A stretch of DNA of 64,000 bases from Salinigranum halophilum (lineage in GTDB: Archaea; Halobacteriota; Halobacteria; Halobacteriales; Haloferacaceae): assembly GCF_007004735.1 (NCBI RefSeq), contig NZ_SSNL01000004.1, positions 434,001-498,000 of the forward strand, given 5' to 3'. A program made the translations under genes and the position numbers. The stretch's first letter is position 1, and each line of letters starts with the position of its first letter. Positions 36,692 through 37,632 of this stretch are shown piece by piece. Below the pieces are notes generated by a model. The model worked only from the letters and a program-made list of their open reading frames with translations. It ran no database searches and was not told the origin of the DNA.

Positions 36692-36762
36692 GGGACCGTG
36701 GGGTAGTGGTATCCTCTGCGGATGGGGTCCGCAGGACTTGAGTTCGATTCTCAGCGGTCCCA
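36692..36762 (+). tRNA. tRNA-Pro (GGG)
   Basis: 71 bases. Acceptor GGGACCG pairs with CGGTCCC and the discriminator is A, with no encoded CCA. The anticodon stem TGCGG/CCGCA surrounds the loop ATGGGGT, giving anticodon GGG. The T arm is TTGAG-TTCGATT-CTCAG. Its last 13 bases belong to a 15-base sequence repeated at 37518, marking it as an integration target. Confidence 0.95.
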
Positions 36763-36764
36763 CT
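36750..36764 (+). repeat. attL-like direct repeat inside tRNA-Pro
   Basis: CTCAGCGGTCCCACT covers the end of the T stem, the acceptor 3' strand and two bases beyond the tRNA. It is identical to 37518-37532. Both copies are soon followed by a T-run and AC. Confidence 0.8.
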
Positions 36765-36783
36765 CCACCTTTTTACGTCGTCA

Positions 36784-36802
36784 GGTGCGCCTTCGGCGCA
36801 CC
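36784..36802 (+). repeat. Hairpin sequence after tRNA-Pro
   Basis: GGTGCGCC-TTC-GGCGCACC has perfect 8-base arms. It lies 22 bases past the tRNA end, inside the small element, and may mark RNA 3' ends. A second hairpin with arms CCGCGAC and GTCGCGG follows at 36834-36858. Confidence 0.55.
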
Positions 36803-36900
36803 GTTCCTCGCAAAAAGCTGGGACAAAAACGTGCCGCGACTCGCTTCGCTCGTCGCGGTACGGTACACCCGTGGAATGTATACCTCTGCCAGGAGTCGGC

Positions 36901-37146
36901 TTACAGGTTTTCAGCGATCCAGCGACACCACGTACGGAAGTCCTTCGCCCCGCACTGGTTCGCGATGGACTGGAGGGTCCCGGTCGGGATGTCACCGTGC
37001 ATCGGCACCGTTACGACCCGTACCTCGTCGGAGTGTGGGCTCTCCCACCGTAGCTTGAGGTGGCTCCCCGTCCGGTCGACCGGACGGTATCCGTGGCTGG
37101 TCAGGACTGAAGCGACTTCACGACCGGAGAACGTCGTCCGGACCAT
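36901..37146 (-). CDS. hicA: HicA-type toxin (mRNA interferase)
   Basis: 81 residues. HicA proteins have a dsRBD-like fold and cut mRNA. The family pattern is present: SGREVASVLTSHGYRPVDRT, the catalytic His29 in GSHLKLRW, then VRVVTVPMHGDIPTGTLQSI. The final ~15 residues (GAKDFRTWCRWIAENL) extend a usual HicA. Its ATG directly follows the hicB stop codon with no spacing. Gene order is hicB first, the reverse of the more common hicA-hicB. Confidence 0.9.
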   Translation of the reverse strand: MVRTTFSGREVASVLTSHGYRPVDRTGSHLKLRWESPHSDEVRVVTVPMHGDIPTGTLQSIANQCGAKDFRTWCRWIAENL

Positions 37147-37404
37147 CTACCGCAGGAACTCGGGGAGTTCCTCATCGTCAAACTCGTCGGGGTCGAGGTC
37201 CCACTCGTCGAGGTCCTCGTCGGTCACGGGTTCCCCGCCCCCTGCGTGGAGTTCGAGCGCCTCGGCAAGCATTCGGAGGGCCTCGGCCTTCGTCTCGCCG
37301 AACGACGCGACTCCGGTCTCACGGTCTCGAGCCGTGATGCGGCCGTCGTCCTCGTGGATGAAGTCGACGCCGTCGAGATGGTCGTCCCGAGTCGTGCTCG
37401 CCAT
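37147..37404 (-). CDS. hicB: HicB-type antitoxin
   Basis: 85 residues. The partial RNase H-like HicB core is visible: VDFIHEDDGRITARDRETGV followed by SFGETKAEALRMLAEALELH. The C-terminus is a strongly acidic tail (DEDLDEWDLDPDEFDDEELP) in place of a helix-turn-helix or ribbon-helix-helix domain, so self-repression by DNA binding is not evident. The ATG at 37404 has a TTAA-containing TATA box at 37430-37438 on the minus strand, fitting leaderless transcription. It is expected to bind and neutralise HicA. Confidence 0.86.
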   Translation of the reverse strand: MASTTRDDHLDGVDFIHEDDGRITARDRETGVASFGETKAEALRMLAEALELHAGGGEPVTDEDLDEWDLDPDEFDDEELPEFLR

Positions 37405-37517
37405 TTCAGTTACATCCAGTCGTCGTGGCGTGTTAAGCGTTCGCCAGCGGAGCCCGAGCGACAGAGACGAGCACATGCAGACTTCGATCGATTATCCGGA
37501 GAACGAAGCCCGCTCAC

Positions 37518-37532
37518 CTCAGCGGTCCCACT
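37518..37532 (+). repeat. attR-like direct repeat
   Basis: Exact copy of 36750-36764 (CTCAGCGGTCCCACT), followed by TTTTTTACC. It lies 101 bases before the stop of the next leftward gene (37633) and does not rebuild a tRNA, so it is the distal junction. Confidence 0.8.
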
Positions 37533-37632
37533 TTTTTACCGGAACATGGGACGAAGAGATGCCGGAGAGGGTAGCTCGGCGCTCCCGTTCCGTCGACGAC
37601 GAACGGGACGAGTCCCGGGACGGCACATCCAC

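Follow-up and report, generated by a model that had tools for sequence, protein, structure and literature searches.

Genes and repeats at the tRNA-Pro(GGG) locus

The window, a 64,000-nucleotide stretch of contig NZ_SSNL01000004.1 of the haloarchaeon Salinigranum halophilum, contains a tRNA-Pro(GGG) gene at positions 36692–36763 of the forward strand (ARAGORN; Rfam tRNA search of the organism's own genome), which is the integration target considered here. The final 14–15 nt of this gene make up the proximal attachment (att) copy of a repeated sequence, CTCAGCGGTCCCACT (36750–36764, forward strand), and an exactly matching distal att copy lies on the same strand at 37518–37532. The preliminary description of this DNA had singled out a 15-base repeat at the tRNA-Pro end and 768 bases downstream; the spacing of 768 bp and the identity of the copies are exact, and these are the only two exact occurrences in the whole 4.2-Mb S. 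halophilum genome (reversed control, 0). For comparison, the chance level for a 15-mer with up to two mismatches is 0.26 matches on average per 64-kb shuffle. Past the copy the match resumes as T5-AC minus five bases (ACT-CCACC-TTTTTAC versus ACT-TTTTTAC).

The hicBA pair provides the sole genes between the repeats. The hicA toxin gene (36901–37146, reverse strand; 81 aa) is intact, carries the G-S-H motif and matches Pfam PF07927 with an E-value of 6e-14 (52 bits, cut-off 27); its product also matches PDB 9svk, a member of the HicA family (E 4e-4). Adjoining it, the intact antitoxin gene hicB (37147–37404, reverse strand; 85 aa, start codon ATG at 37404) matches the HicB-type antitoxin family PF24113/DUF7387 (E 5.5e-37, 126 bits). 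The fold predicted for HicB, three strands and a helix, returned weak matches only in a fold search, to the HicB-like 2yzt and the antitoxin 3k6q, and appears consistent with HicB. Judged by its sequence, with a HicA domain next to a HicB-type antitoxin, the pair would belong among the HicAB type II toxin-antitoxin systems, and it would be expected to have toxin and antitoxin activity and to be addictive. Alignment of upstream regions and comparison with other cassettes place the hicB promoter region and the inner att arm at 37405–37517, with a CGAACGCTTA motif ~30 nt upstream of the hicB ATG in the upstream alignment and GCTCAC in the inner arm adjoining the distal copy.

Inverted repeats form two hairpins at 36765–36821 and 36830–36862, between the tRNA gene and hicA. 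They probably represent a terminator or 3'UTR common to the tRNA and the convergent hicBA genes; an Rfam search of the 36750–37532 segment for known RNAs gave nothing above threshold. The hairpins are made of a repeat that is dispersed among haloarchaeal 3' flanks, downstream of protein stop codons and of tRNAs in many genera, and a hairpin of the window type also directly follows tRNA-Pro in two other genomes (G306 and G322). Because ordinary protein genes and tRNAs have it too, the hairpin is not specific to the cassette, and we rejected the idea that 36765–36862 is itself a mobile unit or a cassette end. The dispersed repeat has the layout CCACCTTTTTACTTCGTCGGG-hairpin-CTCGCAAAAAGCTGGACC, possibly a terminator family.

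Open reading frames, Pfam matches and inverted repeats all bear out the earlier account that only hicB-hicA and two hairpins, with no integrase, lie between the repeats. We found no integrase ORF and no replication or virion genes there, and 36750–37532 retains nothing of int, accessory or replication genes. No second copy of the window hicBA cassette was found. The attP junction expected of an excised 768-bp circle would read hicB-side GCCCGCTCAC, then CTCAGCGGTCCCACT, then CCACCTTTTTACG; such a junction was absent from viral contigs, which is weak evidence.

The same site in three congeners

We compared the locus with that in three further Salinigranum genomes (G001, which is Salinigranum salinum YJ-50-S2, G002 and G003). 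truB followed by tRNA-Pro(GGG) is present in all four genomes, and hicBA is absent from this place in all three congeners. In G003 the site is empty: the tRNA end is joined directly to what lies beyond the distal copy in the window. G002 carries a 106-bp unit that closes with a 25-bp second copy and is followed by the common right flank, and S. salinum has a 6.1-kb insert, then a repeat copy, then the same flank. With the repeat excluded, the right flanks align with scores of 24 (G003), 24 (G002) and 20 (S. salinum), against shuffled maxima of 14, 17 and 15 respectively. The flank comparison therefore reveals three different inserts at exactly one point.

The ancestral right flank, which in G003 abuts the tRNA with nothing in between, occupies 37533–37592 in the window and is itself an older unit of ~57 bp that terminates in a decayed third copy of the tRNA end, so the site has been used repeatedly. 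Since one congener has an empty site and the others have different inserts, segment 36750–37532 is a true insertion at an attachment site in use. The preliminary description had taken the direct repeats as a mark of site-specific integration and had proposed inspecting tRNA-Pro(GGG) in relatives, where hicBA in place in all of them with no empty site would have spoken against an element; the relatives showed the opposite, with a clean empty site in G003 and no hicBA in any of the three.

Repeat copies of 17 bp bound the S. salinum insert on both sides, and the gene beside the distal one encodes a tyrosine recombinase of 370 aa that has phage-integrase SAM domains. This recombinase is 37% identical to the integrase of the virus SNJ2 over 369 aa (E 9e-72). 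An integrase-bearing insert at this very point makes tRNA-Pro(GGG) a working attB in Salinigranum. The same element (L167 8036–13843, on contig C2 of G001) also encodes a pentapeptide-repeat protein of 673 aa and another protein, of 343 aa, whose start resembles that of a lipoprotein.

hicBA cassettes at other tRNA genes

Genes of the DUF7387 hicB family are very common, occurring in 220 of the 293 haloarchaeal genomes sampled. It had been proposed that repeat-bounded hicBA segments like this one be sought at other haloarchaeal tRNA genes, and the search located them at tRNA-Ala: bracketed cassettes are present there in S. salinum (two in tandem), G275, G230 and Halosimplex pelagicum, and the metagenome-assembled genome QS_4_66_20 holds the distal half of one. 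Cassette sizes are ~615–825 bp, always with hicA towards the tRNA and the hicB promoter towards the distal copy. The end of the distal copy lies 92 bp from the hicB start in the first S. salinum cassette, G275 and G230, and the second S. salinum cassette has a decayed copy at the same 92-bp distance. Bases just inside the core are alike across the cassettes, that of the window included. The first S. salinum cassette and the G275 cassette are 89% identical over 606 bp, ending exactly at the distal tRNA copy. The distal 13-mer of H. pelagicum is CCCCGCGAGTCCA, its own tRNA-Ala end, where other genera have CCCGGCGAGTCCA; this is expected if the distal copy is the displaced host attB. Such an own-variant distal copy is not universal, however, since in G230 two bases distinguish the copy from the resident tRNA. 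Downstream of tRNA-Ala(CGC), S. halophilum has no hicBA but the gene that also follows the S. salinum double cassette, which makes this a second cassette-free site.

A library of haloarchaeal tRNA 3' ends gave 58 matches against 122 hicBA clusters, compared with one for a reversed decoy library; a second set, from named genomes, gave 38 against 0 reversed, the two sets sharing some loci. Of 161 non-redundant loci with hicBA, a tRNA 3' end lies no more than 1.2 kb away on the side of hicA in 11, against an expectation of ~1.2 (binomial P 5e-8, treating the 161 loci as independent and counting the window locus). On the hicB side there are two such loci of the 161, and a tRNA 5' end faces hicBA at none.

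At fourfold sites, hicBA of S. salinum and hicBA of G275 are 70–75% similar, compared with 64% for core genes. We make no claim of recent transfer of this cassette between genera, the synonymous similarity being barely above that of core genes. In a HicBA tree the cassettes fall in at least three separate parts, with G230 far from the others, so a single origin of all tRNA-bounded cassettes is unsupported. Plasmids yielded five partial hicBA matches, and neither of the two examined was visibly linked to a tRNA; single-sequence and alignment searches of IMG/VR viral contigs gave no confirmed hicBA relatives.

Relationship to the virus SNJ2

A search of a phage collection for hicBA returned only SNJ2, a temperate pleolipovirus of the betapleolipovirus group, and the window HicB and HicA are each 73% identical to the SNJ2 proteins, of which one is annotated as HicB. 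SNJ2 has int and two accessory genes and, diverging from them, a regulator gene followed by hicB and hicA. If int faced the distal att, hicBA would be left pointing at the tRNA, as in the window. Closely related proviruses in four genomes (G057, G041, G273 and G227) carry an SNJ2-like int-to-hicBA block, and decayed forms also occur: in G046 a tRNA-Arg is accompanied by hicBA and a 90-aa integrase fragment, and at a tRNA-Tyr in G193 a fragment of SNJ2 gp09 adjoins hicBA. The SNJ2 att is given as 13 bp at the tRNA acceptor end in a review (PMC8371274), with which the 13–15-nt core of the cassettes is compatible. SNJ2-type elements and the window cassette thus resemble each other in having a tRNA 3'-end att with a short core, hicBA genes of the same family that lie the same way round with respect to the distal att, and haloarchaeal hosts. 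The cassette differs from SNJ2 in having no integrase, accessory, replication or virion genes and in its size, 768 bp against ~17 kb.

S. halophilum itself encodes two SNJ2-type integrases, on contig 2 (G000:C2:559162, L268) and contig 4 (G000:C4:602405, L263), which are 34–35% identical to the S. salinum tRNA-Pro integrase. One is accompanied by accessory and regulator genes and is 54% identical to that of SNJ2, and one lies 1.3 kb from tRNA-Arg(CCG). Two integrases of this genome adjoin tRNA genes, and among its integrases none is known to use tRNA-Pro. At tRNA-Ala in other genomes there are compact elements of 2.3–2.9 kb (L355, G319:C29:50500–57500; L357, G022:C49) in which an SNJ2-type integrase stands beside a distal 22-bp copy.

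Origin of the cassette

In our reading the window cassette derives from SNJ2-type elements and is non-autonomous and bounded by att sites. Segment 36750–37532 would then be a mini-element comprising a hicBA operon with its own promoter and terminator between two tRNA-Pro 3'-end att sites. According to this model, hicBA would have begun as cargo of SNJ2-type elements and been reduced to a minimal att-hicBA-att unit that may still be moved in trans, and site-specific recombination would have placed this unit in the tRNA-Pro(GGG) 3' end in the lineage of the window. Because the cassette has no recombinase of its own, we infer that recombination was catalysed in trans, most likely by a tyrosine integrase of the SNJ2 type (that of haloarchaeal pleolipoviruses), and that the cassette had been reduced to its minimal form before it arrived. 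Afterwards it may have been kept in place because loss of the pair would free the toxin. That an already-minimal unit of SNJ2-type descent was mobilised in trans into this site seems to us to have a marginally better than even chance of being correct.

The competing account with most to recommend it, which we hold to be quite plausible at somewhat below even probability, is that a full SNJ2-type element once occupied tRNA-Pro and that deletions spared the att copies and an addiction-kept hicBA, leaving an immobile remnant. The hicBA orientation matches the SNJ2 layout, with hicBA divergent from int, and the forms at tRNA-Arg in G046 and tRNA-Tyr in G193 look like intermediates of such decay. 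Integrated haloarchaeal elements with no integrase are described in the review cited above, where gene loss after integration is assumed (PMC8371274). Reduction in place also predicts cassettes in several parts of the HicBA tree, and these several origins, the decay intermediates and the lack of a known helper or second copy together favour it; the degree of similarity at synonymous sites between the S. salinum and G275 genes, which allows vertical descent of that pair, likewise counts against mobility in trans. On the other hand, independent cases would have to converge on 615–825 bp with both att copies intact, the tandem pair in S. salinum would need reduction twice at one site, and the window segment has no residue of int, accessory or replication genes. 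The tandem minimal cassettes, narrow size range and conserved geometry favour a unit that moves as such, and we lean slightly towards arrival as a minimal unit, with the integrase in trans, over stripping in place. An addiction-kept remnant and a trans-mobilised passenger were the two options put forward at the outset; these were the right ones to weigh, since decay intermediates and tandem cassettes show both processes within the family.

Exchange between haloarchaeal tRNA-flanking regions by homologous recombination, with the tRNA and repeat copies serving as homology and no integrase involved, appears improbable. Genera with different hicBA genes at tRNA-Ala(CGC) share synteny around that tRNA, and the occurrence of the window hairpin directly after tRNA-Pro in G306 and G322 would fit such exchange, but a genus-native right flank that joins exactly at the 15-bp repeat is an unexpectedly exact stop for it, and integrase-bearing elements use the same sites. 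To a coincidental 15-bp repeat beside an ordinary chromosomal hicBA pair we give almost no credence: a family found in 220 of 293 genomes will lie near some tRNAs by chance, but CTCAGCGGTCCCACT occurs only twice in 4.2 Mb, the same architecture recurs elsewhere, hicBA is strongly enriched beside the 3' ends of tRNA genes and is faced by a 5' end at none of the loci, and the empty site of a congener refutes it.

If the cassettes do move in trans, as in our preferred reading of a minimal att-hicBA-att unit, they would be an archaeal counterpart of bacterial toxin-antitoxin cassettes and dif modules. Toxin-antitoxin cassettes of chromosomal integrons bear their own promoters and are stacked at one platform, with the newest nearest to it. 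The haloarchaeal cassettes are similar in being promoter-bearing and stacking at one platform, where the repeated site is here a tRNA end. The dif (pdif) modules of Acinetobacter plasmids, compared by description and general knowledge (PMC13141974, PMC12907356), are alike in being small, bounded by recombination sites, often made up of a toxin-antitoxin pair, free of a recombinase of their own and capable of tandem arrangement; host enzymes are presumed to move them in trans. They differ in having XerC/XerD sites and in residing on bacterial plasmids, whereas the window cassette has tRNA 3' ends and lies on an archaeal chromosome, and on sequence inspection its flanking repeat is a 15-nt tRNA 3' end and not a dif-like 28-mer with XerC/XerD sites. 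Archaeal integrations that lack an integrase or lie in tandem are likewise att-bounded, with several elements per tRNA (PMC8371274; for Thaumarchaeota, PMC6563490). The open-access literature that we searched contained no description of recurring hicBA-only cassettes bounded by tRNA ends.

On the reading given here, a tRNA-integrated unit can shrink to a toxin-antitoxin pair and att sites alone, a very common haloarchaeal hicBA family is tied to tRNA-integrating viruses, and some of the many tRNA fragments that litter the downstream flanks of haloarchaeal tRNA genes are accounted for. It also becomes testable whether addiction alone retains DNA through the loss of the whole surrounding element.

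tRNA-end copies and gene-free units

In S. halophilum, 14 of the 47 tRNA genes surveyed (loci L084 and L199–L261), or ~30%, have part of their own 3' end repeated downstream, neighbouring duplicate tRNA genes explaining one or two of the 14. Nearly all of these copies lie within 300 bp, and the hicBA copy, at 755 bp, is the exception. Across the haloarchaeal family, copies of the tRNA-Ala end stand in arrays, as many as ten within 1.5 kb, at spacings that include 84–92 and 131–136 bp, and the reversed control is nearly empty. A wider interpretation, which we put forward tentatively and consider rather doubtful, is that haloarchaeal tRNA 3' ends may serve as stacking platforms to which toxin-antitoxin cassettes and gene-free units of ~60–150 bp would be added serially by SNJ2-type integrases in trans, giving arrays like those of integrons or dif modules. 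Units of 60–110 bp are too short for ordinary double-stranded circles.

Several further arrangements were seen at tRNA genes. One locus (L344, G260:C7:52000–58386) has ten tRNA-Ala 3'-end copies in ~1.45 kb (1237–2670), mostly 84–200 bp apart, and its array includes two complete tRNA-Ala(GGC) genes, while the genome G012 has 13 copies of the tRNA-Ala 13-mer on one strand. Gene-free units beside tRNA-Pro(CGG), tRNA-Ala, tRNA-Arg and tRNA-Pro(TGG) (L181, L178, L046 and L035, respectively) share, as judged by eye, a common layout of an inverted T-arm copy, a GAGTCGCAGCG...GCGACCGTCT hairpin and a direct T-arm copy.
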